DNA of 64,000 bases from a bacterium. GTDB lineage: Bacteria; Arandabacterota; Arandabacteria; Arandabacterales; Arandabacteraceae. A program made the position numbers and the translations under genes. Position 1 is the first letter of the stretch. Each line of letters starts with the position of its first letter. Where the stretch lies: assembly GCA_029933125.1 (NCBI GenBank), contig JAOZOU010000002.1:296281-360280 (forward strand). Direction: 5' to 3'. This document shows positions 2,103 through 50,614 of the stretch, in pieces. The notes beneath the pieces are model-generated. The model was not told the origin of the DNA and did no database searches. It saw nothing but the letters and a program-made list of their open reading frames with translations.

Positions 2103-5100
2103 ATGAAGAAGCATCTGCTTTCCATGCTTTTCACTATTGCTCTTGTCTCTTGGGTCGGTGCTGGTGAGGAGACCCTCGGCCCCAAAGCAACGCCTGAGGG
2201 AATTGTTTTCACATTTGAGGCACCCGGAGCCAAGAGGGTAACGATTGCAGGCGAATTCAATAGCTGGTCACCTGAAAGCACACCCCTTAAGAAAATCAGA
2301 GAAGGGGTCTGGCAGATTGTTCTTCCGCTCAAGCCAGGTAGATACGAGTATAAGTTTGTGATCGATGGAAAGATCTGGAAGGAAGATCCTCACAGTCCCG
2401 GCTATGTTCCTGATCCCTATGGTGGTCGTAACTCGGTTATCACTGTTCTCAGCGATGGCTCCATTGATTGGGGTGGTGCCAGGCAAAGGCGAGCACCTAT
2501 TGTTGGCGAACTCAAAACCCTTAAGAAACCAATCTATCTGGCTATTCTATGGCATCAGCATCAGCCACGCTATTTCAAGGATCCGGATACGGGTGAATAT
2601 ACCGAACCTTGGGTCCGAATCCATGGCATCAAAGATTACTATGAAATGGTGGCGATACTTGAGAAGTATCCAGACATGAAATTTACTGTTGATCTTACCC
2701 CCGTTCTCCTGACCCAGCTCCTTGAGATTATCAGTTCATATGAGAAAAACAGCTTTGAGCCTGGCATGGCCATACCTGGCTGCGATAAATGGGTGCGCCT
2801 GACACTTACCCCACCCGAGAAATTGACACAAGAAGACAAGATTTTCATCCTCAAGAACTTCTTCAGAATGCCACGCGAGACCATGATTGATATCTATCCG
2901 CGATTTGCCGAGCTGGCTTCAAAAAAACTTGGTGATAGCGACGAAAAGATCAGAGCTTCGATCAAAAACTTCAGCGAACAGGACTGGCGTGATTTGCAGG
3001 TCTGGTTCAACCTTGCTGAGTTTGATCCTGATTTCAAAGAGGGTTCTGTCACACTTCCCGATGGTGAGATTGTATCAGTCAAGCATCTGGTTGATAAAGG
3101 ACGTGACTTTACTGAGGAGGAAAAGCGAGAGGTCATAGAAAGTCAGTTCAAGATTCTTAAGAACATTCTTCCTGTTCACAAGAAGTTTCAGGAGCGAGGT
3201 CAAATCGAAGTAATAACGTGTCCATTCTATCATCCCATTCTTCCTCTGATCTGTGATGTGAGCGTTGCAAAAGAAGCAAATCCTCAAATTGAATTGCCAT
3301 CAAAGACTTTCAAGCATCCCGAAGATGCTATGGGTCAGATTGAGAAGGCATGTGAGTTTTATCGTAAGTTGTTTGGCAGAAGACCTGAGGGAATGTGGCC
3401 ATCCGAAGGTGCGGTTTCGCAGGCAATTCTTCCGCTTGTCGCTAAGGCAGGGCTCAAGTGGATCGCAAGTGATGAAGGAGTACTTGCTCAGTCACTTGGG
3501 AGATCTGGCTTGAGCCTTCAGGATAAGTATCGGATGTACTATGTAGATGGAGCAGATAGAAAGGTGGCCATGATCTTTAGGGACCACGAACTCTCTGATG
3601 ACATAGGCTTCAGATATTCAAAAATGAATGGAACCGATGCCGCCAATGACATGATTCGCAAGCTCCATAACATAGCCAAACAGCTTCAGAATGCTGAGGG
3701 TGATTTTGTCGTTCCTATCATTATGGATGGCGAGAATGCATGGGAGCATTTTGAGAGGGACGGCAAGGAATTTCTCAATACCTTCTATTCGGAGGTTTCT
3801 CAGGCTGATTGGATCATACCTGTCACAATTTCTGAGTTTCTCAAGCTGTCACCACCGAGACATAGCCTGAGCCATCTTAGTCCCGGCTCATGGATCGGTC
3901 ATACATTCGACACATGGATTGGTGAGGAGGAAGAGAATACAGCCTGGGATTATCTTGCTGCTGCACGCGATTTTGTTGGAGCCCAGAAATCCAAAGTCTC
4001 CAAGACCGTTCTTGATAGCATGATGGAAGAGATTTACATAGCAGAGGGAAGTGACTGGTTCTGGTGGTATGGACTTGACCAGGGCTCTGGAAATGATGAG
4101 GTTTTCGATAGAGCATTTACGGGTACACTTGCCAGGGTTTACGAAATAGGTGGTGAGAGCATACCTGACTATCTTGGCTTACCTATTGTGAGGCCTTCGG
4201 CTGAAAAGCCTTCGCGCAAGATAAGCGGTATGATGAAGGCAACTGTCGATGGACACCTTACCATTTCTGATGAGTGGAACAAAGGTGCATATGTTGATGA
4301 TATTGAAGGGGGAACAATGGCTCGGGCACTGGGGGACATTCTTGGGGGGCTTTACTACGGTTATGATAGTGAGAAGCTCTTCCTCCGCATTGATATAAAT
4401 CCAAGCATCAAAGATATTGCCTCCAATGGATGTCTCGCAGAAATCTACCTTTCGGGAGGTGCTCAGCCTGCCAATGCCTACGTCAAGCCGGGAGGTGAAA
4501 AGATCTTTCTGGATTTTGCAGTTGCCAGCCTCATCAGACTCAACCCCACCCAGCCAGCGTCTGCTGAGCTTCTCAAAGCTCGTGGCAAGGGCGAATGGCA
4601 GAAGGTGGGTGGTGTTGAAAGTGCCTTCTCTGATTTCTTTGAAATCAGTTTGCCATTTGCTGATCTTGAGCTCAAAGGTGGTGAGAGCCTGAGACTTGTA
4701 GTGGGAGCGATATGTAATGGAAAGCTCGAAGATAGGATTCCTGATAAGAGCTATCTTGAGCTGAAGGTGCCAATCGGTGGCCTGAAGTTGCTCCGCTCGA
4801 TCGAAGATCCAATTGGTGATGATGATGGCCCTGGCTACTATACCTATCCCACTGATCCAGTTTTTGAGAAGGGTTCCTTTGATATGACTTCCTTAGAGGT
4901 GCTGCTTGATGAAAACGACAATGTGATTTTCAAGATAGGTGTGCGTGGTAATCTCTCAGCACCTTGGGGCGGAATAACGGGTTACAGCCTTCAGGCAATT
5001 GATATCTATATTGACGCCGATGGCATCCCCGATTCAGGTACAAGGGACCTCTTTAGAGCAAGAAAAGCAAGAACAGTAAGAGATCACGCATGGGAATACT

Positions 5101-5477
5101 TTGTGCGAACCTGTATGGATACCGTCGCCATCTACAATGCGAGGGGTGTGAAGCTTGGTACAAAAGTTAAGTCTTATCCTGATGCCGTCACCTCATCGAT
5201 ATATGTTACCTTCCCCGGGGAAGCTATCAAAGGTGGAAAGGTCTGGAATGTGATTGTTGCAATGCTCGGACACGATGGATACTCCTTCGGTCAGATCAGA
5301 CCGGTTCAGGCTGTTGCGAGCCAGTGGTATTTCGGTGGATGTGATGATGAAGCCCTCTGTCCTTCAATAATAGATCTTATTATCGAGCCAGGGCTTCCCC
5401 AGCACGATATACTCTCAGCCTATCGTAGGACTCACGAGCTCGTTGAGCTCGAGGGAATACGGATAGAGCTGCCCTGA
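2103..5477 (+). CDS. Secreted GH57 alpha-glucan hydrolase with CBM48 and glucodextranase-type C-terminal modules
   Basis: Predicted extracytoplasmic amylase or amylopullulanase-type enzyme of 1124 residues. Order: signal peptide (1-20); a CBM48/AMPK-type glycogen-binding domain (about 25-110, with AGEFNSWSP and YEYKFVIDG); the GH57 barrel from about 145 to 700; two beta-sandwich modules, the last (about 910-1120) resembling the glucodextranase C-terminal domain (DPIGDDDGPG). GH57 motifs are intact: HQHQP at 151-155, the expected nucleophile Glu435 in WPSEGAVS, and Asp542 in MDGENAW as likely acid/base. I chose ATG 2103 because it gives a proper signal peptide and follows AGGTGAAG; a longer frame from 2037 overlaps the previous gene. 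The neighbouring ABC importer would take up its products. Confidence 0.9.
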   Translation: MKKHLLSMLFTIALVSWVGAGEETLGPKATPEGIVFTFEAPGAKRVTIAGEFNSWSPESTPLKKIREGVWQIVLPLKPGRYEYKFVIDGKIWKEDPHSPGYVPDPYGGRNSVITVLSDGSIDWGGARQRRAPIVGELKTLKKPIYLAILWHQHQPRYFKDPDTGEYTEPWVRIHGIKDYYEMVAILEKYPDMKFTVDLTPVLLTQLLEIISSYEKNSFEPGMAIPGCDKWVRLTLTPPEKLTQEDKIFILKNFFRMPRETMIDIYPRFAELASKKLGDSDEKIRASIKNFSEQDWRDLQVWFNLAEFDPDFKEGSVTLPDGEIVSVKHLVDKGRDFTEEEKREVIESQFKILKNILPVHKKFQERGQIEVITCPFYHPILPLICDVSVAKEANPQIELPSKTFKHPEDAMGQIEKACEFYRKLFGRRPEGMWPSEGAVSQAILPLVAKAGLKWIASDEGVLAQSLGRSGLSLQDKYRMYYVDGADRKVAMIFRDHELSDDIGFRYSKMNGTDAANDMIRKLHNIAKQLQNAEGDFVVPIIMDGENAWEHFERDGKEFLNTFYSEVSQADWIIPVTISEFLKLSPPRHSLSHLSPGSWIGHTFDTWIGEEEENTAWDYLAAARDFVGAQKSKVSKTVLDSMMEEIYIAEGSDWFWWYGLDQGSGNDEVFDRAFTGTLARVYEIGGESIPDYLGLPIVRPSAEKPSRKISGMMKATVDGHLTISDEWNKGAYVDDIEGGTMARALGDILGGLYYGYDSEKLFLRIDINPSIKDIASNGCLAEIYLSGGAQPANAYVKPGGEKIFLDFAVASLIRLNPTQPASAELLKARGKGEWQKVGGVESAFSDFFEISLPFADLELKGGESLRLVVGAICNGKLEDRIPDKSYLELKVPIGGLKLLRSIEDPIGDDDGPGYYTYPTDPVFEKGSFDMTSLEVLLDENDNVIFKIGVRGNLSAPWGGITGYSLQAIDIYIDADGIPDSGTRDLFRARKARTVRDHAWEYFVRTCMDTVAIYNARGVKLGTKVKSYPDAVTSSIYVTFPGEAIKGGKVWNVIVAMLGHDGYSFGQIRPVQAVASQWYFGGCDDEALCPSIIDLIIEPGLPQHDILSAYRRTHELVELEGIRIELP

Positions 5478-5484
5478 GGCAATA

Positions 5485-7605
5485 ATGCTTGAGATTGATC
5501 CAAGATCGGTTGCTGCCATTATCATCTCAGTTTCGGTGGCATCACTGCTTGCCGTTGTGCTTTACCGCCAAACAGTTCCAAGACTACCGCGCAATTATCG
5601 TTTGCTCCTTGGTTGTCTGAGGTGGTTTGCAATTCTTATCATAATGCTTCTTATAACAACGCCCAAAGTAACCCTTGTGCGATCCCAGAGTCGTCAACCT
5701 GTTGTTGGTATTCTCGTCGACGAATCCCAGAGCATGCAATATCCAGATTCAAGCAAGATCCAACTTCTCGAATCCCATCGCTTACTGAGTGTGCTCAACG
5801 AACTTTCAGATAGGGTTGGATTGAAGATCTATGGTTTCTCGGATGAGATCTCCGAGGTCACAATTGATGAGATTTCTGCCTTAGAATATGATGGATCCCG
5901 AACGGATATTGCTGGGGCGATCAAAGCGGCTATTGAAGCTTTGGGTACAAGGCCTTCCGCTCTCGTCCTCATAAGTGATGGTTCCAACAACTATGGTGAT
6001 GATCCTGTATATTATGCCACGCATCTTTCGATTCCTATCCATTGCATCGCTACTGTAAGCAAGGAGAAAACACCTGATGTTGTCCTCGAACGGGTTGAAG
6101 CAAACGATGTTGCCTATGCTGGAAGTGCTGTGAACATTTGGGTGGACCTAAGCAGCAATCTTGGACGCGAGCTCGCTACAAAAATCACGGTAAGCGATTC
6201 AACAGGTATAGTCCATTCAGGCGAGATTACAATACCTCCTCATGGTGCAAGAACAAGAATTCCCTTGAGGCTTGAAGCCGGGGATGTCGGAATCCATAGA
6301 TTCAAAGTCAGAATCGAACCCTTTGAGGGTGAGAAAGTTGTAGTCAATAACCAGAGCTCTTTTGCTGTGCGCGTGATAAAGGGAAAGATGCGAGTCTGTC
6401 TAGCCGCTGCGCAACCGTCCTGGGATTTTGCGTTTGCCCGCAGAGCGCTTGTGAACAATGACAACATTGATGTCAGCACCTATCTTGCAAAGCCATCCCG
6501 CATAAGACTTAAGGGTGGGGTGAAGAGCCTGAAGGATGCCTTAGCCTCCATTGATGTACTCGTTGTGTTCAGGGGCACCAAGCTTGAAGCGCAGTATGAT
6601 GCCATCAAGCGTTTTGTTGAGAAGGGTGGAGGGCTCCTCTTTGTCTCAGGTGAGCCTTTTCAGAAGCTCTTTGGTGACCTCTCGCCTTTCAGTCTGGCAC
6701 CACAAACGGGAAACGACGTGAGAATGTACAATCCGGTAGTTACTTCTTCTGGACAGGATCATGAAATCATGAGAGTTGGAATGGAAAGTCCCAACTTCGC
6801 ATGGTCGAGACTTCCTCCAGTTCCCGCACCAGCATTTATTACCGGAACACGACCCGGTGCCTTGACACTCCTCGATGGCAAGAGTGGAAAGGATCGTGTT
6901 GCCTTGCTCGCCATAAGCCGCTTTGGTGCTGGCAGAGTTGCTGCCCTGAGCTGCTTTGATCTTTGGAAGTGGGATCTTGCACCCAAAGGTTTTGGGATGG
7001 GGGTCAACGTCTATGATGGCCTCTTGATCAACATTATCACGTGGTTAGTTGAAAAATCTGAGGTCAAACCCCTGGCCGTCTCCACATCCAAGCTTGTTTA
7101 CCTCCAAGGGGAACCTATTGACATCTCGGCAAAGCTCCTTGGAAAGGAGTTGCAGCCCATAGCTGGGGCAGAACTTAAGGTTGCGATAGGTCGAGCTAGG
7201 ACAGGGGAAGTTGTTCTCACAGCGGACTTCACTGACAAGGGCAATGGTAACTACTCGGTTCGTATTGAGCAACTTCCACCTGGTGAATATGTTGCTAGGG
7301 TGAGAGCCAACGACGGAGGCAATGAGATAACGCAACTCGTGCATTTTGACGTTGAGGAAAGGGGACTCGAGGATGCCAACTTCGATGGTGATCTCTCCAG
7401 ACTTGAGCGGCTGGCGTCAGCAACAGGGGGAAGACTACTCGACAGTGAAGAGATCGGTGCCCTTTCAAAAGTTGTAAGTCCTGGAAAGGTAGTAGTTAGG
7501 AGCAATAAAACGCTTGTCCTAAAGCTAAACCTTCCCACCTTTGCTTTACTAGCGGTGATTTTTGGACTTGAATGGTTAATGCGCAAGCGGAAGCTCCTCG
7601 TCTGA
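5485..7605 (+). CDS. Membrane-anchored VWA domain protein with glutamine-amidotransferase-like region
   Basis: A 706-residue membrane protein of unknown function. Two N-terminal transmembrane segments (about 8-27 and 38-57) are followed by a von Willebrand A domain with the metal-site motif DESQS and the later LISDGSN. A region resembling class-I amidotransferase folds follows (IDVLVVFRGT ... FVEKGGGLLFVSGE), then Ig-like beta domains, and one C-terminal transmembrane helix before a basic tail (RKRK). This architecture recurs in BatA-like and N-terminal double-TM VWA proteins of bacteria. ATG 5485 lies 7 bp after the GH57 stop. A hairpin and T-run directly follow the stop, so this gene ends the transcript. 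Confidence 0.8.
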   Translation: MLEIDPRSVAAIIISVSVASLLAVVLYRQTVPRLPRNYRLLLGCLRWFAILIIMLLITTPKVTLVRSQSRQPVVGILVDESQSMQYPDSSKIQLLESHRLLSVLNELSDRVGLKIYGFSDEISEVTIDEISALEYDGSRTDIAGAIKAAIEALGTRPSALVLISDGSNNYGDDPVYYATHLSIPIHCIATVSKEKTPDVVLERVEANDVAYAGSAVNIWVDLSSNLGRELATKITVSDSTGIVHSGEITIPPHGARTRIPLRLEAGDVGIHRFKVRIEPFEGEKVVVNNQSSFAVRVIKGKMRVCLAAAQPSWDFAFARRALVNNDNIDVSTYLAKPSRIRLKGGVKSLKDALASIDVLVVFRGTKLEAQYDAIKRFVEKGGGLLFVSGEPFQKLFGDLSPFSLAPQTGNDVRMYNPVVTSSGQDHEIMRVGMESPNFAWSRLPPVPAPAFITGTRPGALTLLDGKSGKDRVALLAISRFGAGRVAALSCFDLWKWDLAPKGFGMGVNVYDGLLINIITWLVEKSEVKPLAVSTSKLVYLQGEPIDISAKLLGKELQPIAGAELKVAIGRARTGEVVLTADFTDKGNGNYSVRIEQLPPGEYVARVRANDGGNEITQLVHFDVEERGLEDANFDGDLSRLERLASATGGRLLDSEEIGALSKVVSPGKVVVRSNKTLVLKLNLPTFALLAVIFGLEWLMRKRKLLV

Positions 7606-7631
7606 CTGGCTCGCCCTGGGCTAGCTTTTTT
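7606..7631 (+). terminator. Rho-independent terminator after the sugar-uptake cluster
   Basis: A 7-bp stem (CTGGCTC paired with GGGCTAG, two G-T pairs), a 5-base loop and a run of six T begin immediately after the stop codon of the VWA gene. It separates that operon from the HU gene promoter 3 bp further on. Confidence 0.75.
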
Positions 7632-7633
7632 AC

Positions 7634-7663
7634 TTGACACAAATTATCAACTTCAACTAAATT
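7634..7663 (+). promoter_or_regulatory. Sigma-70 type promoter of first HU gene
   Basis: TTGACA at 7634-7639 and a TAAATT-like -10 at 7658-7663 with an 18-bp spacer. A transcript starting near 7670 excludes the TTG codon at 7662 as a start and supports GTG at 7698. Confidence 0.55.
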
Positions 7664-7697
7664 GGATGCCGGGAAGCAGGGTAACGAGGGGGCACCG

Positions 7698-7976
7698 GTG
7701 ACCAAGGCTGATATCGTCGAGGAAATTGCTGCGAAGACAGGACTTACTAGGAAGGAAACCGCCGAGATCTTTGCCCATTTCATTGCGGCGGTCAAAGCAG
7801 CGCTTAAGCAGGGTAAGCACATAGAGATACGAGGATTCGGCACTTTCAAGGTTGTTACCCGGAAACCCCGAACCGCCCGAAATCCCCGCACGGGCGAGGT
7901 AGTTCCCCTCGCTGAGCGAAAGGTGCCAGTCTTTAAGGTCTCGCGGGAACTCAAGGATAGAGTTGCGGGACTTTAA
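7698..7976 (+). CDS. HU/IHF family DNA-binding protein (first copy)
   Basis: Small nucleoid protein that bends DNA as a dimer. The 92-residue product carries the full HU pattern: an N-terminal helical dimer region (TKADIVEEIAAKTGLTRKE), the GFGTF turn and the beta-arm motif RNPRTGE, where the proline intercalates into DNA. I prefer GTG 7698, which follows GAGGGGGC. A TTG at 7662 would add 12 residues but overlaps the predicted -10 element. The C-terminal arm differs from the second HU copy at 8736, so these are paralogues and not a recent duplication. IHF-like specificity cannot be excluded. Confidence 0.93.
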   Translation: MTKADIVEEIAAKTGLTRKETAEIFAHFIAAVKAALKQGKHIEIRGFGTFKVVTRKPRTARNPRTGEVVPLAERKVPVFKVSRELKDRVAGL

Positions 7977-8075
7977 TAAAAGGCTGAGAATCGGTTTTCA
8001 ATAGTCGTGATCAGCTGGCTGTGTAGGGCTTCTTGCTGGCACAGATGGGCACGGCTGGCAGGCAAGGAGGTTACA

Positions 8076-8636
8076 ATGCCAACCAAGGTGGAGTTAGGCA
8101 AAAGGATCAGGGAAGAGAGGCTGCGCCAAGCTCTCACACTCAAGGACGTTCAGTCGCGTTCCGGGATATCTGCAACACACATATCCCAAATCGAGCGTGG
8201 CATAACGTGGCCCACTGTGAACGTGCTTGATAAGATTGCCAAGGCACTGGCAAAGCATGCGAGCTTCTTCCTTGAGGATGTCGAACTACCTGAAGTCTGC
8301 GTTATGCACGAGACGGGTGCACCAATTGTATTGTCTGAGGAACCAAGACTTGTTCTCCAGCCCATGACAACAGGCATTCCGGGTGGGAGACTTCATTTCT
8401 ACAAACTCATAGCAAGTCCTGGCAAGGGCTCTGATTTTGCTTACATGCATGCACATGAGGGTGATGAGTGTGGTTATGTGCTCTCGGGTGAAATTGAGGT
8501 TAAGGTTGGCGACGAGGTCCACAAGCTTTCGCCAGGTGATGCAATTCACTTCAATGGAAGTAGGCTTCACGGCATAAGAAACATCGGCGATAGAGCGAGT
8601 GAGTCAGTTTGGGCAGCTTTTAGCCTTGGGCTGTGA
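8076..8636 (+). CDS. XRE-family transcriptional regulator with C-terminal cupin domain
   Basis: A 186-residue regulator. Residues about 5-62 form a helix-turn-helix of the Cro/C1 type (GKRIREERLRQALTLKDV ... SGISATHISQIERG). Residues about 110-183 form a cupin with MHAHEGDECGYVLSGEIEV and the downstream PGDAIHFNG ... LHGIRN metal-site pattern. Such proteins usually sense a small ligand or metal through the cupin, for example in amino-acid, polyamine or stress control. ATG 8076 follows a perfect AAGGAGG; an upstream in-frame start at 8007 has none. It stands between two HU genes with nothing that names its target. Confidence 0.88.
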   Translation: MPTKVELGKRIREERLRQALTLKDVQSRSGISATHISQIERGITWPTVNVLDKIAKALAKHASFFLEDVELPEVCVMHETGAPIVLSEEPRLVLQPMTTGIPGGRLHFYKLIASPGKGSDFAYMHAHEGDECGYVLSGEIEVKVGDEVHKLSPGDAIHFNGSRLHGIRNIGDRASESVWAAFSLGL

Positions 8637-40306: not shown

Positions 40307-41556
40307 CAGCTGTTTTGGGCTTACAGTGGGGCGATGAAGGAAAGGGCAAGATCGTTGATGCCCTGTGTGAGGAAGCGGATGTCGCAGTCAGGTGCCAGGG
40401 TGGTGCCAATGCTGGACACACAGTTGTCATAGAGGGCACAAAGCACGTTCTCCATCTCATACCCTCTGGCATCCTTCGTGCCAATACCTATTGCGTGATT
40501 GCTGATGGGGTTGTTGTAGATCTCGATGTCCTGAGTGAGGAGATCAACCGGCTCAGGTCCCTTGGATTGGAAGTTTTGGATAGGCTCGCTGTCTCTATGA
40601 GGGCTCATGTCGTCCTGCCACTCCACAGGCGCATCGAGGCAATTCATGAGGAGGCAAGAGGCAAGGAGAGAATAGGCACAACTGGGCGGGGCATTGGGCC
40701 ATGCTACAGCGATAAGGCTGCCCGTTTAGGCATTCGCATCTGTGATGTGCTTCAACGTGACTCCCTGGCTGGAAAGATCAAAGCCCTTTACGAGGCGCAC
40801 GGCTTCAATGGAACTCAGGCAGATGAAGAAATTGAGAGGACGCTTGGCTATCTTAGCAGGTTTGCTGATCTTATGCGAAGGGTTGGCAAAGATACTCATG
40901 TCATCCTTGCTGAGGCTCTCGCTTCGGGCAAAAGCATTCTTCTTGAAGGTTCACAGGGTTTTATGCTTGATCTTGATCATGGAACCTATCCCTATGTGAC
41001 GTCTTGTAATACTGGTATTCACGGGCTTCTTACTGGCTCAGGTCTCCCTCCAGGTGCACTCACGAAGGTGGTCGGGGTGGCAAAAGCTTATGTTACCCGA
41101 GTGGGTGCAGGACCCTTCCCAACTCAGATGGAAGAACCCTTCCAAAGCCAGGTCAGGGAGAGGGGACAGGAATTTGGCGCAACGACCGGCCGCCCTCGGC
41201 GTTGTGGCTGGCTTGACCTTGTCGCATTGAGATATGCCTGCAGAACGAACGGTATTACCTCACTGGCAATAACAAAGCTCGATACCCTTGGTGGAATCGA
41301 AATCCTTAAAGTATGCACAGCATACAAGTACGGAGGGAAAATCTTTGATGTTCCACCTCCAAGTGCAGGTATCCTGAGCCATTGTATCCCTCAATACAAG
41401 CAGGTTGACCCATGGCGAGATCTTGGCACGCTGAGCTGCTTTGATGACTTGCCTCGTGAAGCCAAAGCTTACCTTGCGCTCATAGAGGAATGGACAGACT
41501 CACGGGTGGAAGTTGTTTCAACAGGTGCGGAAAGGGCGAGTATTCTCAGGGCTTAG
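40300..41556 (+). CDS. purA: Adenylosuccinate synthetase
   Basis: Makes adenylosuccinate from IMP, aspartate and GTP, the first step to AMP. The 418-residue protein has the P-loop-like LQWGDEGKGKIVD, the catalytic His in NAGHTVV, GTTGRGIGPCYSDKA, and the GTP guanine-site KLDTLGG. ATG 40300 follows GGGAGAAGG and overlaps the aminotransferase stop. tRNA-Lys(TTT) follows with its own promoter beginning 3 bp after the stop. Confidence 0.97.
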   Translation: MVTAVLGLQWGDEGKGKIVDALCEEADVAVRCQGGANAGHTVVIEGTKHVLHLIPSGILRANTYCVIADGVVVDLDVLSEEINRLRSLGLEVLDRLAVSMRAHVVLPLHRRIEAIHEEARGKERIGTTGRGIGPCYSDKAARLGIRICDVLQRDSLAGKIKALYEAHGFNGTQADEEIERTLGYLSRFADLMRRVGKDTHVILAEALASGKSILLEGSQGFMLDLDHGTYPYVTSCNTGIHGLLTGSGLPPGALTKVVGVAKAYVTRVGAGPFPTQMEEPFQSQVRERGQEFGATTGRPRRCGWLDLVALRYACRTNGITSLAITKLDTLGGIEILKVCTAYKYGGKIFDVPPPSAGILSHCIPQYKQVDPWRDLGTLSCFDDLPREAKAYLALIEEWTDSRVEVVSTGAERASILRA

Positions 41557-41559
41557 CAA

Positions 41560-41588
41560 TTGACTTGGTGAAAGTTATCCTTTAGATT
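41560..41588 (+). promoter_or_regulatory. Promoter of tRNA-Lys(TTT)
   Basis: TTGACT at 41560-41565, 17-bp spacer, TAGATT at 41583-41588; the tRNA starts 12 bp later. Confidence 0.65.
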
Positions 41589-41599
41589 TGGCATTGGTC

Positions 41600-41675
41600 G
41601 AGCGTGTAGCTCAGTCGGTAGAGCACCTGCCTTTTAAGCAGGAAGTCCTGGGTTCGATTCCCAGCACGCTCACCA
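41600..41675 (+). tRNA. tRNA-Lys (anticodon TTT)
   Basis: A 76-nt gene with acceptor GAGCGTG/CACGCTC, anticodon stem CCTGC/GCAGG, loop CTTTTAA, T-loop TTCGATT and an encoded CCA. A run of eight T (41677-41684) follows directly and could end the transcript. Confidence 0.97.
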
Positions 41676-41722
41676 GTTTTTTTTCCACTCATAGCACATC
41701 GAGGTGTCCAGATTTCCTTCAA

Positions 41723-41751
41723 TTGAGATTTCCACCCAAAAAGACTATCAT
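41723..41751 (+). promoter_or_regulatory. Sigma-70 type promoter of kinase/sigma-54 activator gene
   Basis: TTGAGA at 41723-41728, 17-bp spacer, TATCAT at 41746-41751. The ATG lies 20 bp after the -10 with GGGAG between. This suggests housekeeping expression of the regulator itself. Confidence 0.55.
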
Positions 41752-41771
41752 GTTGATGACAGGGAGTTACG

Positions 41772-44700
41772 ATGGGTTACAGGTTTATTCGCAAGTTGGG
41801 AAAGGGTGCCTTTGGTGAGGTATTCGAGGCAGTTGACCAATCTGGCCAGAGGTACGCCGTCAAGGTATCAAGTTCTGATGAAGTTGCAAGGCGCAGGCTC
41901 AGATCCCAATTTGCCTACCTCGCAAGAACGCATCACCAGCGCATAGTAAGCGTCTACGAATTTGATGCTCTTGCACCACAGGGTTCCATGATGGTTACTG
42001 AGCTCGTAACAGGTGAGGATCTAAGATCTTACGTGGAAGCCTTTGGTGAGCAACACCTCTTAGAGATTGTTGCGAAGATTCTTGATGCTCTTCGCTATCT
42101 TCACAGTATCGGACGCATTCATGGTGATATCAAGCCCAGCAGCATCCTCATCACGCACAAAGACGGTCAGCTGGATGTGAAACTCATCGATGCAGGCTTT
42201 GAAACTCAATCGTCGTCACTTAGCGACCTGCAAGGTACACCCGCCTATCTTGCTCCCGAGATAATAAGGAACACAAGACCTGATGGGAGGAGTGATCTCT
42301 ATTCGTTGGGTATGACTCTTTATGAGATCCTCTCGGGCAGTTTACCTTTTGACACATCTGACATAAATCGTATTCTCTCATACCACCTTGACGTCCCACC
42401 CGATCTTGAAGCAATTGAGAAAAGATCACCAGCCTGGGCAACCTTCCTGCGAGGGCTTCTTGAGAAGGAACCTTCACGAAGGTATAGCAGTGCAATTCAT
42501 GCTGGCTATGAGCTGGAACGACTGCATTCTGCACCTGGAATCTTCTCGCGCAACCTTCTCCCTGCCTATGCTGCTCAATTTGTCGGAGCTGATCAGATTG
42601 AAAGCCTGGCAAATGATCTTATCGGGGGTAAGGTGCGTTTCATTGTTGTCGATGGCACAAATCTATCAGGTGTATCGCGCACGCTTCGGGAGCTTACGAT
42701 CCACCTGCTTGAGCATGGCTACAGGGTTCATCATTTGCTATCGAGGTCGAGTGATTCACTCTTGATCCAACTCCTCAGGATAGGCTCGAAGGATGAGGCG
42801 CTACGCTCGGGAGCTATCCCGACCGGCAGGCATGAAATCGTGGCTTCAATCTTTGATCATCTTATGAAACTCCCTAAGGATGGGAGAAAGCACATCGTGG
42901 CGATTGACGATGCAGATGTGAGAGAGGAAGAGGTAACCAAAATAATAGAGATCCTCGATGAACTTCCGCAGAATGTGCAGGCTGTCATAGGCTGCCATGG
43001 TTTTGAGCATTGGAAGGCAAAACGCTTAGCCGACTATGGAGCGGTGTTCAAGCTCGAGCCTCTTGATCTTAAGAAAACTCGCACGATGATCCAATCCATC
43101 CTTGGTAGCGTCCGGGTTCCTGAGAAACTTGTTGAAGCCATTTACAACGTTGGCTATGGCTATCCAGGCACGATGGATCTCATCTTGAGATATCTTCTCA
43201 ACTCGGGTCACATCGGTTTTTCCATTGACAGGGAAGATCTCACAGTTGAGTGGGATGGGAGTATAAAGTCACCTGACATAGAGGAACAGCTGCAGCACTG
43301 GCTTGGCACGCTCTCCTCGGATGCGCAGAGCGTGCTCTTTGCAATTGCAGTCGCAAGGGGACGGATCGAGCGCACCATTCTCGAGAAAATCTATGGAGAT
43401 GAAAGCGTCTCAAAAGCTACTGAGGAATTACGCAACAAGGGACTCGTGATTGAGTTTGAGCGACGATCCAGGATTGCCCTCATCCACGGTTTAATGGAAG
43501 ACCCCCTTCGGCGATTGTGTCCACCCGAGGTCTTCTCAGAGGTCGGAAGAAAGATTTATGAGCTGCTTGAGCGCATGCCTCGCTCTCCATGGGATAATCT
43601 TAGGCTGGGTATGCTGCTGTGGTCACTTGGTAAGGGGGAAGATGCGCTCGAGTATCTTATTGAAGCCGGTCGCGATCTTTCCTCGATTTCTCCAATTGAT
43701 GCCATGCTTGCCTATGAGACTGCACTTGAGTGCACTTCGAAGGAAACTCTCAAGGCGAGCATCCATGAAAAGATTGGCGATACTGCGCTAGCAACCAATG
43801 ATCTCGATATGGCATTGCAGCATTTTGAGATCGCAAGTCCCGTGCTTGCACCAGCACGGCGCAAGCTCGCATGGGCAAAAGCATTAAAGGGAGCCACAGA
43901 AGAGGCAATTGAAATCCTTAAGGCCTGTGAAAGAGATGCATCCTCAAGAGATGATCTCAGTGAATTGGCCCGCATAAAGGCTGACCTTGGCTATGTATAT
44001 GTGCTTGGAGGTGAGATTGAAGAAGCACTCAAGGCGCTAACCAGGGCAGCTGCTATCTTCTCCAAGCTAGGGCTTCCTGGTGAGGAGGCAAGAGCCTATA
44101 ACAGGATGGGTGTTGCTCGGATGAAGGCGGGTAACTTCAAGGAGGCTTTGATTGCATATAGATCGGCAACGGAGGCTTTCAGGAAAGCCGAGGATCAAAG
44201 GCGCGCAGCGCTGGCTGCTGTTAATGAAGCTCTATGTTTGAGAAAGGATATGAAGCTTGCTGAAGCAAGCCACTTGATTCGTGAATCGATTGCTATCCTC
44301 GAGAATGAGAGAGCACCCTATGAGAGAGCAAGCTGTTATCAGGCGCATGCTCTTGTACTGCTTGATCTTGGTGAGCTCGATCAGGCTGAGCAAGCTGCAA
44401 AGTATGCTCTCAAGATAAACAGGAGTCTGGGAGTTGCCACGGGAGTGGTAAGCTCCACCCTTATGGTTGCGGGTGTGGAGCTTGAACGTGGCAACTGGCA
44501 TTCAGCGCAAAAACTCATCACTACCGTTTTGAAAGGGAAGGGTCTCACTGCCTATCAACTTGCAATCGCGACGCGCTACCTTGCAAGGGTCAGAGCCTTG
44601 CAGGGAAAGATTGATGAGGCTACCGATCTAGTTGAGGAAAGTTTGAGTTATGCATCCGTGGCTAAAGATACCGAGGGCAAGGGGCAAGCCTTGCTGGAAA

Positions 44701-46706
44701 TGGCAAACATTTGTCTCAAGAGCAAACGCTATGGAGAGGCAGCAGAGACGGCCTTGCAAGCAAGAGCGATTCTTGCGCTTGCTCCATCACCTCTCTATTC
44801 TTTTATCACACAAACATTGCTGGGTGAGGTTCTTGCCCTATCGGATAAGCCCGGGGACGGTCTCAGCGAACTTCTCATTGCAAAGGATGTGTGGGAGCAT
44901 TTTCCAAAGTCACTCCATTTAGGGCGTACCTATAAGGCTTTGGCGACTGTTTACTGCCTCATTGGCGATCAGGCATCCTACTGGAAATATGTACTTGCAG
45001 CTATGGAGATCTTCTCTACAGCGGGGGCCCGCTATGATTTCGGTGTCTGCTTGCTCGATGCAGGTGAGGTTGCCCTGAGTGAAGCTAAGTTTGTCAGGGC
45101 GGGCAAATACCTTAGAGAAGCAAGTCATGTTTTTGAGGGACTGGGAATCGATGATCTTAGAGAAAAGGCGGTGGAAATGATGGAAAAGGTTGGAAGCCAT
45201 GACATTGAGTCATCAGCTATCGCATCCCTGAGTAGCATTTCAAAGATTCTCAGCTCGAGTAGAGATCTCACGAGTGTCCTCAACTCTGCTATGGATCTCG
45301 CCGTCGAGTACCTTGGTGCCGAAAGAGGGGTCTTGCTTTTGATTGATGAGGTCACGGATGAACTCAAACCAATCGTCGAGAGGCGTATGGACAGCGAGTC
45401 AATCAAAGATGCACTTGACATCAGTCGGACCATAGTTGAGGAGGTAAGATCCACACGCGAGCCTGTCATTTCAGCCGATGCGACAAAGGATCCCCGTTTC
45501 ACTGCGAGCAAGAGTATAGCAATGCACAACATAAAGTCAGTCATGTCATTGCCGCTTAAGGTAGATGAGGAGCTGCTTGGCATAATCTACCTCGACAGTC
45601 GGAGCGTTCCCGCCACATTTACTGATCTTGAGAAGGCTTTTGTTGACGCTTTTGCCAATCAGGTTGCTCTGGCGATTGCCAATGCCCGCTACTTCGGCAA
45701 GCTGCATGATCACTGTGTTGATCTTAGAGTGAGAGCAGGGGAGAGGTACAGCTTTGCCAACATCGTAGGGCCGGGCAAACGCATGCAAGAGATATTCAGG
45801 CAAGTTGAAAAAGCCGCCAAGAGTAAGATAACCATCCTCATAACGGGTGAAAGCGGAACGGGCAAAGAACTTATCGCCGGTCTAATCCACGAGCTCAGCC
45901 CTCGTGAGGAAAAGCCATATGTGATTGTAGATCTTGCAGCGATCTCGAAGGACTTGCTCGAGACTGAGCTTTTCGGCATCGAGAAAAAGGTTGCCACGGG
46001 TGTGGCTGCAAGGCCAGGCGTCTTTGAAAGAGCCAATGGTGGAACGATATTCCTCGATGAGATTGGTGATATGCCTCTTGAGACGCAGATGAAGGTGCTT
46101 CGGGTTTTGGCAGAGCAACAGTTTACACGAGTCGGAGGAGCAAAGGTCATAAGAGTCGATGTGAGAGTAATAAGTGCCACCAACAAGGACCTTAAGGGGA
46201 TGATGGATAAGGGGCTTTTCAGATCTGATCTTTACTACAGGCTCAATGCGATGCAAATCCATCTTCCACCTTTGAGGGATAGGCTAGAGGATCTACCTGC
46301 CCTTATAGCCCATTTCCTGAGAAAGTACACAGCTCAGAATGCCAAGCCCTCCATGGAGATTTCCAGTGAAGCTCTTGAAGTTCTCAAATCGTACTGGTGG
46401 CCTGGCAATGTACGTGAGCTTGAGAAATGCATTGAGCATGCGGTTGTTGTTGCCGAGGGAAGGTTGATCGGTATAGAGCATATACCACGCGAAATTGTTG
46501 ACAATGTGAGAATTGCAGGTACTACCGCCAGGGTGAGGAAAGCAGGGGGTGCGACTTTACCCGAGGCAGTTCAGACCCTCGAGAAAGAGATGATCCTCGA
46601 TGCTCTGCGCAGGACTGGAAATGTCAAAACAAGAGCAGCTGAGCTCCTTGGCATCCACGAAAGTACCCTCCGTAAGAAGCTCAAAGCCTACCACATTGAG
46701 GAGTAG
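41772..46706 (+). CDS. Ser/Thr kinase - ATPase - TPR - GAF - sigma-54 AAA+ - Fis fusion regulator
   Basis: A 1644-residue fusion. Residues 1-255 are a Hanks-type kinase: LGKGAFGEVF loop, Lys31 in YAVK, catalytic Asp119 in HGDIKP, metal Asp140 in DAG (instead of DFG), and LAPE; it looks active. About 270-520 is an AAA_16-like region whose P-loop lacks the Lys (GTNLSGVSRT). About 640-1130 holds TPR repeats and 1150-1310 a GAF domain. From about 1335 comes a sigma-54 activator AAA+: Walker A GESGTGKE (Lys1365) and Walker B IFLDEIGDM, but KVATGV (1406-1411) in place of GAFTGA. A Fis helix-turn-helix ends the protein (GNVKTRAAELLGIHESTLRKK). The front half resembles PknK/HstK-type sensors. It likely senses a signal by kinase, TPR and GAF and controls sigma-54 promoters nearby. 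Confidence 0.9.
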   Translation: MGYRFIRKLGKGAFGEVFEAVDQSGQRYAVKVSSSDEVARRRLRSQFAYLARTHHQRIVSVYEFDALAPQGSMMVTELVTGEDLRSYVEAFGEQHLLEIVAKILDALRYLHSIGRIHGDIKPSSILITHKDGQLDVKLIDAGFETQSSSLSDLQGTPAYLAPEIIRNTRPDGRSDLYSLGMTLYEILSGSLPFDTSDINRILSYHLDVPPDLEAIEKRSPAWATFLRGLLEKEPSRRYSSAIHAGYELERLHSAPGIFSRNLLPAYAAQFVGADQIESLANDLIGGKVRFIVVDGTNLSGVSRTLRELTIHLLEHGYRVHHLLSRSSDSLLIQLLRIGSKDEALRSGAIPTGRHEIVASIFDHLMKLPKDGRKHIVAIDDADVREEEVTKIIEILDELPQNVQAVIGCHGFEHWKAKRLADYGAVFKLEPLDLKKTRTMIQSILGSVRVPEKLVEAIYNVGYGYPGTMDLILRYLLNSGHIGFSIDREDLTVEWDGSIKSPDIEEQLQHWLGTLSSDAQSVLFAIAVARGRIERTILEKIYGDESVSKATEELRNKGLVIEFERRSRIALIHGLMEDPLRRLCPPEVFSEVGRKIYELLERMPRSPWDNLRLGMLLWSLGKGEDALEYLIEAGRDLSSISPIDAMLAYETALECTSKETLKASIHEKIGDTALATNDLDMALQHFEIASPVLAPARRKLAWAKALKGATEEAIEILKACERDASSRDDLSELARIKADLGYVYVLGGEIEEALKALTRAAAIFSKLGLPGEEARAYNRMGVARMKAGNFKEALIAYRSATEAFRKAEDQRRAALAAVNEALCLRKDMKLAEASHLIRESIAILENERAPYERASCYQAHALVLLDLGELDQAEQAAKYALKINRSLGVATGVVSSTLMVAGVELERGNWHSAQKLITTVLKGKGLTAYQLAIATRYLARVRALQGKIDEATDLVEESLSYASVAKDTEGKGQALLEMANICLKSKRYGEAAETALQARAILALAPSPLYSFITQTLLGEVLALSDKPGDGLSELLIAKDVWEHFPKSLHLGRTYKALATVYCLIGDQASYWKYVLAAMEIFSTAGARYDFGVCLLDAGEVALSEAKFVRAGKYLREASHVFEGLGIDDLREKAVEMMEKVGSHDIESSAIASLSSISKILSSSRDLTSVLNSAMDLAVEYLGAERGVLLLIDEVTDELKPIVERRMDSESIKDALDISRTIVEEVRSTREPVISADATKDPRFTASKSIAMHNIKSVMSLPLKVDEELLGIIYLDSRSVPATFTDLEKAFVDAFANQVALAIANARYFGKLHDHCVDLRVRAGERYSFANIVGPGKRMQEIFRQVEKAAKSKITILITGESGTGKELIAGLIHELSPREEKPYVIVDLAAISKDLLETELFGIEKKVATGVAARPGVFERANGGTIFLDEIGDMPLETQMKVLRVLAEQQFTRVGGAKVIRVDVRVISATNKDLKGMMDKGLFRSDLYYRLNAMQIHLPPLRDRLEDLPALIAHFLRKYTAQNAKPSMEISSEALEVLKSYWWPGNVRELEKCIEHAVVVAEGRLIGIEHIPREIVDNVRIAGTTARVRKAGGATLPEAVQTLEKEMILDALRRTGNVKTRAAELLGIHESTLRKKLKAYHIEE

Positions 46707-46738
46707 AACTCACCAGTTCCTTCGTATGTTTGGCCGAT

Positions 46739-46754
46739 TCGTATCTTTGTACGA
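46739..46754 (+). promoter_or_regulatory. Palindromic candidate activator site 1
   Basis: TCGTA, 6 bases, TACGA. The same arms with the same spacing recur at 46906-46921. It lies about 300 bp upstream of the predicted -24/-12 start site, a normal enhancer distance for a Fis-type activator. A half site TCGTATG lies just upstream. Confidence 0.55.
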
Positions 46755-46905
46755 TTTATACCTTGATTTTTGGTGGGAATAAGCTCAAGCACTTGCCTTC
46801 CTGTCTATCCTCTTTTATTCCAAGGAGTTACGCCTGTGCAGGGCCAGCGAGAAGCCCATAGCGGCTTGCAGCGCCTCAGTGATTGTCGTTCTATCCTATC
46901 TTCTT

Positions 46906-46921
46906 TCGTATACGCGTACGA
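46906..46921 (+). promoter_or_regulatory. Palindromic candidate activator site 2
   Basis: TCGTA, 6 bases, TACGA, identical arms and spacing to site 1, with centres 167 bp apart. It lies about 130 bp upstream of the predicted sigma-54 transcription start. Confidence 0.55.
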
Positions 46922-46981
46922 TTAGCCTTCGCCATAAGCATCTCAAGCTCGCCTAACGCATATTATCTCATGTAATTCCAA

Positions 46982-46997
46982 TGGCTTGCAGATCGCA
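46982..46997 (+). promoter_or_regulatory. Weaker alternative sigma-54 promoter match
   Basis: TGGCTTG, 4 bases, TCGCA: GG and GC elements are exactly 10 bases apart, with three mismatches to TGGCACG-N4-TTGCA. It is 40 bp upstream of the better match at 47022. Confidence 0.35.
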
Positions 46998-47021
46998 GAA
47001 TTATCAATGTAGGCAATTTTG

Positions 47022-47035
47022 GGTACGTTTTTTGC
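47022..47035 (+). promoter_or_regulatory. Sigma-54 (-24/-12) promoter of small exported-protein gene
   Basis: GGTACG, 4 bases, TTGC: GG at 47022-47023 and GC at 47034-47035 with the required 10-base gap, matching the GG-x-ACG-N4-TTGC core. The predicted start near 47047 leaves a 30-base leader containing GGAGGAGGTG before GTG 47076. Two palindromes lie upstream, and the regulator gene for this sigma class is adjacent. Confidence 0.65.
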
Positions 47036-47075
47036 CCCTATTCAAGGTCGAAACTCAAACGGAGGAGGTGAAGAT

Positions 47076-47294
47076 GTGAAGAGTAGAATTGCTAAGGTTC
47101 TTTGTGTCATTGGGATTTTTGCTGTGGTGTTTGGCTATGTGAGTCTAGGTTTTGCAGATGGTGACGATCCACCGACAAATCCGGGTGACCCGGAGCCAGA
47201 CTTGCCGCTAGGTGGCACCTTGAGTCCGACAGCAGGCACCCTATTGGAGGTCATGATATTCGCCTTTTTTGCATCGGTCCAATTGCTGCTGTAG
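47076..47294 (+). CDS. Small exported or membrane protein, unknown function
   Basis: A 72-residue protein I do not recognise. It has a clear signal peptide (KSRIAK, then a hydrophobic core to GFA, likely cut after residue 27), a short Pro/Asp-rich acidic linker (DGDDPPTNPGDPEPDLP), and a hydrophobic C-terminal segment of about 16 residues (VMIFAFFASVQLLL). It could be a two-helix small membrane protein or a secreted peptide. GTG 47076 follows a strong GGAGGAGGTG; an in-frame ATG at 47019 is upstream of the predicted sigma-54 start and is rejected. It is flanked by a sigma-54 activator and a reduced AAA+ protein, suggesting it is an output of that circuit. Confidence 0.65.
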   Translation: MKSRIAKVLCVIGIFAVVFGYVSLGFADGDDPPTNPGDPEPDLPLGGTLSPTAGTLLEVMIFAFFASVQLLL

Positions 47295-47359
47295 CTTCGT
47301 CAATGCTGGTGAATGAACCCAGGGGCTAGGGTGCCTCTGCCGGACCTGCGGGGGTCAAG

Positions 47360-48073
47360 ATGAAGATTAGCGAAGACCCTGTTATGGCATCTGTTTTTGA
47401 GCTCGTTGAAAGAGCCGCCAGATGCTTTGCAAATGTGCTTATAGTGGGAGAGAGCGGAGTCGGAAAGACCTATCTCGCTCGAAGAATTCACGAGGCCTCG
47501 CCTGTTGCCGATGGGGGCTTCCACACGTTGCTTTGCTACCCGGGTACGGATATGGGGCTTGCAAGAAGGGACATAGTGGAAGCCCTCTGCCTTCTTGAAT
47601 CTCGAGCTGGAACAGTTGTTGTTGAAGATGTTCACAACTTGAGCCCTCAGGCTCAAAAAAGACTTCTTAGCTATCTTGATCGCCGTGATCAAGGTATCTG
47701 GAGTGAACCTACTAGGCGCTCGCGCCTCATATTTACAAGTAGCAAGTGCCCTGTCCGTGATCTCAAGCAGGCATTTTCTGAGCAGCTCTACATGCGGGTG
47801 GCAGTCATAAAGATTGAGATTCCGCCTTTGAGGCTGCGTCGCTGGGATATCATCCACCTCGCCCACGAGTTTCTCTCACAATATTCAAGGGAGGAAGGAC
47901 GTAATCTTAAGGGCTTCACACCCGATGCTCTAGAGATTCTTGTGAACCTGCCGTGGCAAGGCAACATACACGAGCTTAAGAATGTGATAAACCGAAGTGT
48001 TGTCATGGCTGATGACGGGGAGACCATCGACGCATGTGTTCTGATGGGGGTACTGCAGCAAATTGTCTATTAG
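47360..48073 (+). CDS. Minimal sigma-54-activator-like AAA+ protein without GAFTGA loop or DNA-binding domain
   Basis: A 237-residue protein made only of the activator-type AAA+ domain. Walker A is intact (GESGVGKT, Lys36). The Walker B acid pair is reversed, VVVED (86-90) where activators have DE. The GAFTGA loop between them is absent, with about 20 fewer residues than usual. The Arg finger region remains (LYMRVAVIKIEIPPLRLRR), but the sensor II Arg of GNVRELEN is His (GNIHELKN). There is no Fis domain. It may bind ATP poorly or act as a regulator of the large activator by mixing into its hexamer. That role is inference. ATG 47360 follows GGGGGTCAAG. Confidence 0.82.
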   Translation: MKISEDPVMASVFELVERAARCFANVLIVGESGVGKTYLARRIHEASPVADGGFHTLLCYPGTDMGLARRDIVEALCLLESRAGTVVVEDVHNLSPQAQKRLLSYLDRRDQGIWSEPTRRSRLIFTSSKCPVRDLKQAFSEQLYMRVAVIKIEIPPLRLRRWDIIHLAHEFLSQYSREEGRNLKGFTPDALEILVNLPWQGNIHELKNVINRSVVMADDGETIDACVLMGVLQQIVY

Positions 48074-48082
48074 CAATTGCTA
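48071..48082 (+). repeat. Perfect 12-bp palindrome before the nuclease-like gene
   Basis: TAGCAATTGCTA, overlapping the stop of the preceding gene and 20 bp before the next start. It could be an operator or chance. Confidence 0.35.
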
Positions 48083-48101
48083 TCAAGGGAGAGCAAAATA
48101 A

Positions 48102-48494
48102 ATGGCTAAGCGAAACCACATTGAGGAATCACTTCACTGCCTAATGATAAACGTGCTTGTTGACAGCTACGAGAAGCAGGGCTATGCGGTCTTCGCCGAC
48201 CATGTCGGTGGTCTGAAAGCGATGCCTGAGCAAATTGGACGCCACATACCCGATGTAGTTGCCAAGAAAGGCGATGAGGTTCACATAGTAGAGGTGGAAA
48301 CCCAAGGTACGCTCGAGAGCCCCGAAGCAGAACAGGAGATCCTTGATTTTGCTGCTTCGGCTCCAACAAAGCTCTATCTTGCTGTACCATTTGACTGCGT
48401 TGAGATGGCTCGAAATCTGCGCCAAAACCTCACAGCTGAGTTTGAGATACTGCCATGCTATCCTTTTGTTGGCTATGTTGGCGTGCCAAGATAG
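48102..48494 (+). CDS. Hypothetical protein, possible PD-(D/E)XK nuclease fold
   Basis: A 130-residue soluble protein of unknown function. The segment HIPDVVAKKGDEVHIVEVET has a PD followed about 13 residues later by E-x-E in a predicted beta hairpin, resembling the core of PD-(D/E)XK endonuclease-fold proteins, though the usual Lys is not there. A final strand-rich part (YLAVPFDCVE ... EFEILPCYPFVGYVGVP) fits that fold. ATG 48102 follows AGGGAGAG with good spacing. It lies between the reduced AAA+ protein and dnaK in the sigma-54 region. The nuclease assignment is tentative. Confidence 0.6.
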   Translation: MAKRNHIEESLHCLMINVLVDSYEKQGYAVFADHVGGLKAMPEQIGRHIPDVVAKKGDEVHIVEVETQGTLESPEAEQEILDFAASAPTKLYLAVPFDCVEMARNLRQNLTAEFEILPCYPFVGYVGVPR

Positions 48495-48649
48495 CGCTTG
48501 CCTCGCTGGCATGATTGGCGCCAAACAGGCATATCCAACCTGCCACATTGGCTCCAGTGGTGTTTGCCCGTTTCCCCAAAGTATCCCCATCTAATCTTAT
48601 TTCTTTATCTGGCAAAGGATTACATGAAGAGGCAGATCCTCTTGAAGTT
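48495..48649 (+). other. Non-coding upstream region of dnaK
   Basis: No convincing gene. It contains a perfect 10-bp palindrome TTGGCGCCAA at 48515-48524 and several GGC/GCC-rich half repeats. It leads into the -24/-12 promoter at 48650. No CIRCE element is visible. Confidence 0.5.
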
Positions 48650-48664
48650 TGGCACGCGCATTGC
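48650..48664 (+). promoter_or_regulatory. Near-perfect sigma-54 promoter upstream of dnaK
   Basis: TGGCACG, 4 bases, TTGC: every fixed base of the -24/-12 consensus up to TTGC is matched, with GG and GC exactly 10 bases apart. The predicted start near 48676 is about 50 bp before the dnaK ATG. A weaker sigma-70 alternative overlaps it (TTGAAG at 48642, 18 bp, TATAGA at 48666). Confidence 0.65.
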
Positions 48665-48724
48665 GTATAGATACAAGCGGGCTGATAGTAAGCCTGATAT
48701 CTGACTGTTAAGGAGGCGATAGCA

Positions 48725-50614
48725 ATGGGAAAGATTATAGGAATTGATCTCGGGACAACTAACTCTTGTGTGGCAGTCATGGAAGGTGGGGAGCCTGTCG
48801 TTATACCCAACCAGGAAGGCGGGCGGGTGACACCATCCGTTGTGGCTTTTACCAAAAGCGGGGAACGCCTTGTAGGTTTGACCGCCAAGCGTCAGGCAAT
48901 AACAAACCCCGAAAATACCGTTTACTCCATCAAAAGGTTCATGGGACGTAAGTATGACGAAGTACTCGATGAGATCAAGGAAGTTCCTTACAAGGTTGTA
49001 AAAGGACCTAATGGTGATGCCCGCGTCAAGATCGGCGATAAGGAGTATTCACCCCCAGAGATTTCAGCAATGGTTCTTCAGAAGATGAAGCAGACGGCTG
49101 AGGATTATCTGGGTGAGAAGGTAACCGATGCTGTGATTACAGTTCCTGCATACTTCAATGACAGCCAGCGCCAGGCAACGAAAGATGCAGGCAGAATTGC
49201 AGGCTTGAATGTAAGGAGAATAATCAACGAGCCAACTGCTGCATCCCTTGCCTATGGGCTGGATAAGAAAAAGGATCAGAAGATAGCGGTCTTTGACCTG
49301 GGTGGTGGTACATTTGACATTTCCATCCTTGAGATTGGCGAAGGGGTTTTTGAGGTCAAAGCCACCAATGGAGATACCCACCTGGGTGGTGATGACTTTG
49401 ACCAGCGCATCATAGATTGGCTGGCTGATGAATTCAAGAAGGAGCAGGGAATCGATCTCAGGAACGATCCAATGGCTCTCCAGAGGCTTAAGGAAGCAGC
49501 AGAAAGAGCGAAGTGTGAGCTTTCAAGTGCTCTGGAGACTACCATCAATCTGCCTTTCATAACTGCGGATGCAAGTGGACCCAAACATCTCAACATTACA
49601 CTTACGAGAGCGAAGCTCGAACAGCTTGTTGACGATCTTATTCAGCGCACCGTCGGTCCTTGCAAGCAGGCGCTCGAAGATGCAAAGCTCAAAGCATCGG
49701 ATATCGATGAGGTAATACTGGTTGGTGGTCAGACGCGCATGCCAAAAGTGCAGGAAGTTGTGAAGCAGATATTTGGAAAGGAGCCTCACAAGGGTGTAAA
49801 CCCTGATGAGGTGGTAGCTATTGGTGCTGCCATTCAGGGTGGTGTGCTTGCAGGTGAGGTCAGAGACGTATTGCTGCTTGATGTTACACCACTTTCGCTT
49901 GGCATCGAGACCAAGGGTGGTATTTTCACCAAGCTTATTGAGCGCAACACAACTATCCCTGCACGCAAGTCCGAAATCTTCACAACTGCTGAAGACAATC
50001 AGACAGCAGTTGAGATCCACGTGCTGCAGGGTGAACGTGAGATGGCGATGTACAATAAGTCGATTGGAAGATTCCATCTCACAGGTATTCCACCAGCGCC
50101 ACGTGGAGTTCCGCAGATTGAGGTTACCTTCGACATTGATGCCGATGGAATCTTGAATGTGTCGGCAAAGGATCTTGCCACAGGCAAGGAGCAGTCGATT
50201 CGCATCGAGGCGTCAAGTGGATTGACTGAAGAGGAAATCCAACGCATGATAAAGGATGCCGAAGCGCATACAGCTGAGGACAGACGCAAGCGTGAAGAAG
50301 CTGAGGCAAGGAACAGGGCAGATCAGCTCGTCTATGAGACTGAGAAGAATCTAAAAGAGATGGGAGACAAGATACCTGCTGATGAGAAGGCGAAGATTGA
50401 GGCAGCGATTGGTAGAGTGAAGGAAGCTCTAAAGGGAAGTGACATAGACGAGATAAAGGCGAGCACAGATGCACTTATGAGCGTCTGGAGTGGCGCCGCC
50501 AAGACAATGTATGAGCAGGCAACTGCAGCATCTGGACAGACTGGTGGCGAGAAGAAGGATTCGGGTGGTGGCAAGGACGATGCAGTTGATGCTGATTATG
50601 AAGTTGTTGACTAA
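48725..50614 (+). CDS. dnaK: Molecular chaperone DnaK (Hsp70)
   Basis: ATP-dependent chaperone of 629 residues. The N-terminal [32 protein letters not shown] and [11 protein letters not shown] are the phosphate and adenosine motifs of the ATPase domain. The linker [16 protein letters not shown] leads to the substrate-binding domain, followed by a helical lid and an acidic tail. ATG 48725 follows AAGGAGGCG. No grpE, dnaJ or hrcA lies next to it, which is less common. A strong sigma-54 promoter match is upstream. Confidence 0.98.

Follow-up and report, generated by a model that had tools for sequence, protein, structure and literature searches.

Sigma-54 switches of the NtrC, NifA, NorR and PspF kind combine palindromic sites, located 100-150 bp and farther upstream of a GG-N10-GC promoter, with an AAA+ activator that carries a Fis-type HTH and with RpoN encoded in the genome, and the locus described here resembles them in each of these respects. 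It differs in the arrangement of the sites (two distal ones in tandem, 17 bp apart, and a single proximal one), in the sigma-54-contact loop of its activator, which reads VATG[VI] and is one residue shorter than GAFTGA, and in a very long kinase/TPR/GAF sensor part. Multi-domain Ser/Thr kinase-ATPase-TPR-GAF sensors are known that end in a histidine kinase; here, kinase, ATPase-like region, TPR and GAF follow each other in the same order, but the output is a sigma-54 AAA+ domain with a Fis HTH, and the kinase, whose motifs read HGD.KP.S and D[AV]G, is of uncertain activity. Known enhancers of bEBPs are located 100-150 bp upstream (PMC7057263), and the palindrome distances found here are comparable. 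The same core substitution in the contact loop is known from DVUA0100 of Desulfovibrio vulgaris, a bEBP with a GVATGV loop that comparative genomics predicted, from conserved sites, to act at sigma-54 promoters adjoining its gene; its authors considered that loop substitutions might interfere, with the regulon prediction suggesting that sigma-54 action is retained (PMC4641369). Unlike the present activator, DVUA0100 has a long N-terminal region without recognised domain, has a predicted regulon of plasmid-borne type III secretion genes, and has other DNA targets (PMC4641369). NtrC of Caulobacter, devoid of the GAFTGA motif, acts at sigma-70 promoters (PMC12421884).

The window, i.e. the whole stretch of 64 kb that was analysed, stems from a metagenome-type assembly (176 contigs, 3.2 Mb genome). 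Its phylum is represented by eight genomes in the collection searched, and the locus was compared between the window's genome and five related metagenome-assembled genomes (six in all). Orthologues of the activator show 38-61% identity over long stretches in G001, G002, G004, G005 and G006; in G003 only the C-terminus is covered, and the G006 contig starts just 5' of the proximal palindrome, so that one site is visible there. A scan of GTDB species genomes for further relatives returned the same five loci and none beyond. Where contigs allow, the gene order is activator, small exported protein, sigma-54-type AAA+ protein, AHJR-like protein, dnaK (Table 1). With good probability, the locus constitutes a dedicated sigma-54 enhancer/promoter unit with an adjacent activator, the downstream operon included. 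This is essentially the interpretation put forward by an earlier sequence-only reading, which is largely supported and still the best one: rpoN is present, and relatives have kept both the palindromes and the -24/-12 element. The unit is larger than had been described (three sites, a pseudo-bEBP, a nuclease-fold-like gene and a site at dnaK), and a reservation concerns the activator loop, which is VATG and not GAFTGA.

Table 1. Features of the activator-dnaK region (positions within the 64-kb window).
Feature	Position	Strand	Remarks
Activator, 1644 aa	41772..46706	+	Pfam PF00069, PF13424, PF01590, PF00158, PF02954
Distal palindrome a	46722..46737	no strand	TCGTATGTTTGGCCGA, degenerate, 2 mismatches; partner of distal b at 17 bp in 5/5 genomes
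Distal palindrome b	46739..46754	no strand	TCGTATCTTTGTACGA, exact TCGTA-N6-TACGA
Proximal palindrome	46906..46921	no strand	TCGTATACGCGTACGA, exact; kept in 6/6 genomes
-24/-12 sigma-54-type element	47022..47035	+	GGTACG-N4-TTGC = GG-N10-GC; conserved in 6/6 genomes
Ribosome-binding site	47061..47070	+	GGAGGAGGTG, read from sequence
Small exported protein, 72 aa	47076..47294	+	GTG start; conserved in 6 genomes
Conserved element just 3' of small gene	47318..47326	+	CCCAGGGGC; read in G000, G001, G004, G003, G006
Pseudo-bEBP, 237 aa	47360..48073	+	Sigma-54-type AAA+ and lid only
AHJR-like / PD-(D/E)XK-like protein, 130 aa	48102..48494	+	Pfam PF18743, just above cut-off
Second -24/-12 site, upstream of dnaK	48649..48665	+	TTGGCACGCGCATTGCG, 12/13 consensus
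dnaK	48725..50614	+	Pfam HSP70; order same in relatives

The sequence-only reading had reported twin copies of TCGTA-N6-TACGA, at 46739 and 46906. Both are exact and are the only two in the window, against 0.03 expected, and no shuffle reached two; the third, degenerate site at 46722 had been overlooked. Genome-wide (3.2 Mb) the exact motif occurs six times and the backwards control three times. At six exact copies per 3.2 Mb, two inside 170 bp are therefore not chance. Allowing up to two mismatches, the 369-bp intergenic region contains three sites (shuffle P = 0.002), and the corresponding P ranges from 0 to 0.004 across five genomes. In these, the starts of the tandem distal pair are separated by exactly 17 bp throughout, with the proximal site 154-167 bp beyond the pair, and the palindromes are kept as far as another family of the order. 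Over 16 sites, C2, G3, T4, C14 and G15 do not vary. The TCGTA/TACGA arms are kept and the central base pairs are complementary in just 5-7 of the 16 sites, which therefore indicates DNA recognition rather than RNA pairing. A role of the palindromes as RNA hairpins was rejected accordingly, the sequence but not the pairing being conserved, and above gathering score an Rfam search of 41500-48900 returned solely a tRNA at 41600.

The palindromes are set back from the promoter by roughly 100 bp or more, and they are conserved together with the activator. Relative to a predicted transcript start near 47047, their centres are located at about -133, -300 and -317; the enhancer-like geometry noted earlier (about 130 and 300 bp upstream) thus holds and gains a further position. 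In G002, an unrelated gene of 619 codons on the opposite strand separates the activator from the palindromes, which keep their place next to the small gene. Exact copies found elsewhere in the relatives are situated within coding sequence, as are three of the four others in the window's own genome, the remaining one lying between genes; a wider palindrome regulon was rejected on these grounds. Given that the palindromes stay with the small gene in G002 and that the relatives' other copies are coding, the unit appears to serve a single promoter in each genome. Between the proximal palindrome and the promoter, an A+T-rich block (46957..46982) is conserved in the six aligned intergenic regions and is possibly a bend or an extra protein site; IHF-like bending proteins often act between enhancer and promoter.

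The -24/-12 element, present as claimed by the sequence-only reading, is moderate when the window's copy is taken alone (10/13 consensus positions, shuffle P 0.008) and deviates from the consensus at -24 (GGGTACG vs TGGCACG). Its conservation reaches into another family of the order: in the window and in the five orthologous loci, GG and GC are spaced 10 bp apart in a TGGCAC-N5-TTGC-like context. The GG follows the start of the proximal site at 116, 116, 116, 105, 107 and 117 bp in the six genomes, i.e. in two classes (105-107 and 116-117) that differ by about one turn of the helix. When the six regions were shuffled with dinucleotides preserved, none of 3000 rounds equalled their summed promoter score, and none brought the six top-scoring sites together within 12 bp. 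The orthologous element scores 8/13 in both G001 and G006, and in G001 it ties with another GG-N10-GC that was the script's best pick; as read from these sequences, the promoter evidence in the two genomes is one of position rather than of strength. A sigma-70-type promoter was not found on the coding strand of 46600-48800. The genome encodes RpoN (PF04552, E 4.3e-63), on which the earlier interpretation depended.

The domains of the activator are arranged as Ser/Thr kinase, ATPase-like region, TPR, GAF, sigma-54 AAA+, lid and Fis-type HTH. With Walker A (GESGTGK), Walker B (GGTIFLDEIGDM) and HTH_8, the protein is by its predicted domains and context a member of the bEBP AAA+ superfamily. The recognition helix of the HTH (HESTLRKK) is invariant in the five genomes covering it, the rest of the protein having diverged. 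In place of GAFTGA, all six orthologues carry [KRS]VATG[VI], in which Thr and Gly are kept and Phe is lost; the individual loops, read as KKVATGV (window), ERVATGV, KRVATGI and KSVATGV, have one residue fewer than loops of the GAFTGA kind. Among the other bEBPs that this genome encodes, those with a readable loop show G[AS]FT[GD]A. As the canonical loop is absent, we only infer that the activator itself remodels sigma-54 RNA polymerase. The VATG loop weakens the sigma-54 claim without refuting it, since the GVATGV bEBP of Desulfovibrio is predicted at sigma-54 promoters, and the conserved GG-N10-GC element argues for sigma-54 as the likely partner. Proteins with the same loop type are also present in other phyla, one of them 1830 aa long (G109); when eight neighbourhoods (12-14 kb each) of such bEBPs were scanned, -24/-12 sites of at least 11/13 were detected in only two, so that a link of these proteins to sigma-54 is tentative. 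Two further loci from other phyla (L155 4162-8606 and L156 4459-8825) harbor adjacent bEBP gene pairs with ATGV and VATEV loops in similar neighbourhoods. A plasmid search for the nearest AAA+ relatives yielded ordinary bEBPs. In the kinase domain (41772-42500), the HGD.KP.S and D[AV]G motifs recur in all three orthologues covering the region; catalysis is uncertain because the metal-binding Asn is missing.

Both the ribosome site and the 72-residue exported-protein ORF of the sequence-only reading are present. The small protein consists of a signal-peptide-like N-terminus, an acidic Pro-rich middle with an invariant GDP, and a hydrophobic C-terminus; its profile recovers the relatives' copies at E 1e-30 to 1e-35, and no family of Pfam or NCBIfam matched it. 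The conserved CCCAGGGGC element behind it may be a translation signal or an RNA element for the AAA+ gene. Since no terminator-like site was found in 46600-48800, a single transcript probably covers the small gene together with the genes of the AAA+ and AHJR-like proteins.

The AAA+ protein encoded second retains an intact Walker A, has its L1/GAFTGA loop deleted, lacks an HTH and has lost the first arginine of the FRxDL motif, and the Walker B acid position reads ED, KG, KN, RD, RG and RG in the orthologues. With Walker B acids, GAFTGA loop and HTH all deviating from the NtrC family, it is not classed as an activator. Its AlphaFold2 model is confident (pLDDT 86), and the closest solved structures are NtrC1 and ZraR. 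Judged from these motifs, it probably binds ATP without hydrolysis, and it could poison the activator's ring. PspA and HrpV, known from the Psp and Hrp systems, are not known to be AAA+ proteins. The PspF-PspA and HrpR/HrpS-HrpV systems (PMC7057263) are similar in that an activator is restrained in trans by a partner, as proposed for the dead AAA+ protein; they differ in that the candidate partner here is itself an AAA+ protein of sigma-54 type, in degenerate form, whose gene belongs to the output operon. The AHJR-like protein shares 48-60% identity with the relatives' copies, and its best Foldseek match, a weak one, is the Hjc resolvase (TM 0.43); D51 and E64 are invariant, and the position of the catalytic Lys is occupied by E or R.

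Taken together, these elements are consistent with a mechanism in which dimers of the adjacent activator would bind the three TCGTA-N6-TACGA sites via the Fis-type HTH. Upon reception of a signal by the N-terminal domains, the activator would assemble and loop to the -24/-12 element, allowing sigma-54 RNA polymerase to open the promoter. The resulting transcript would encode the small exported protein, then the dead activator-like AAA+ protein, and then the nuclease-fold-like protein; the dead AAA+ protein would probably temper the activator by mixed assembly. A bolder version, in which bEBPs with VATG[VI] loops form a class that opens sigma-54 promoters without the aromatic residue of GAFTGA, and in which the hydrolysis-dead AAA+ copy from the output operon enters the hexamer and shuts it down, tied to the exported peptide and to dnaK, is speculative and rather doubtful as a whole.

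The loss of the GAFTGA Phe in every orthologue, together with the precedent of Caulobacter NtrC (PMC12421884), could mean that the activator, with its VATG loop, no longer works with sigma-54 and instead uses these enhancer sites to drive a sigma-70-type promoter. This is unlikely: GG-N10-GC is kept at a fixed distance in 6/6 genomes, RpoN is encoded, the coding strand of 46600-48800 is free of a sigma-70-type site, and the prediction for a protein with a GVATGV loop places it at sigma-54 promoters (PMC4641369). The genome also encodes numerous canonical bEBPs, one of which, bearing GAFTGA, might drive the sigma-54 promoter, with the adjacent protein bound to the palindromes as a modulator or repressor. 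Such a division of labor appears quite unlikely, for the neighbour has intact Walker A and Walker B motifs, both its position beside the sites and its invariant recognition helix single it out, and inspection of the aligned region by eye shows no second conserved palindromic site.

Two explanations dispense with the activator as ligand of the palindromes. A 16-bp palindrome suits many dimeric regulators, and an unrelated one, without link to the activator, might occupy the sites; the enhancer-like distances, the tandem arrangement and helical phasing, the single locus per genome and the co-occurrence with the activator make this very unlikely. That the palindromes regulate nothing and are mere chance repeats or hairpins of the RNA, for which the shortness of the five-base arms might speak, is hardly credible in view of the shuffles and of arms kept across 16 sites of which 5-7 pair centrally, i.e. 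it is already contradicted by conservation. The reading of the locus as a sigma-54 unit served by its neighbouring activator is thus retained.

The kind of switch is known; what is unusual is the contact loop of the activator and the catalytically dead copy of its motor domain in the operon. The locus provides a second comparative-genomic case, from another bacterial lineage and with promoter and enhancer both conserved and well defined, that ties bEBPs with VATG-type loops to sigma-54 promoters, and it makes the indispensability of the aromatic GAFTGA residue directly testable. It also supplies a concrete candidate for a bEBP controlled by a co-encoded pseudo-AAA+ partner; if true, this would be a feedback loop that reuses the fold of the activator itself and is linked to an exported peptide and dnaK. 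The host belongs to an uncultured bacterial group whose sigma-54 regulation is undescribed in the literature searched, and queries for kinase-fused sigma-54 activators, VATGV or Eisenbacteria with sigma-54 gave nothing relevant.

Farther downstream, the -24/-12 site preceding dnaK scores 10-12/13 in 6/6 genomes, about 0.02 such sites being expected per 200 bases at the window's rate. The window holds no exact palindrome at this site, and no CIRCE half-sites were found near it at the five loci checked. Elsewhere (L061 ~4000-8250; G000:C152:297027-301230), a -24/-12 site and then a gene encoding a sigma-70-family factor come after a paralogous TPR-AAA+(GAFTDA)-HTH activator. In four genomes, this -24/-12 site keeps a distance of 938-942 nt to the codons of GAFTDA, a layout that suggests a conserved cascade from sigma-54 to a sigma-70-family factor.
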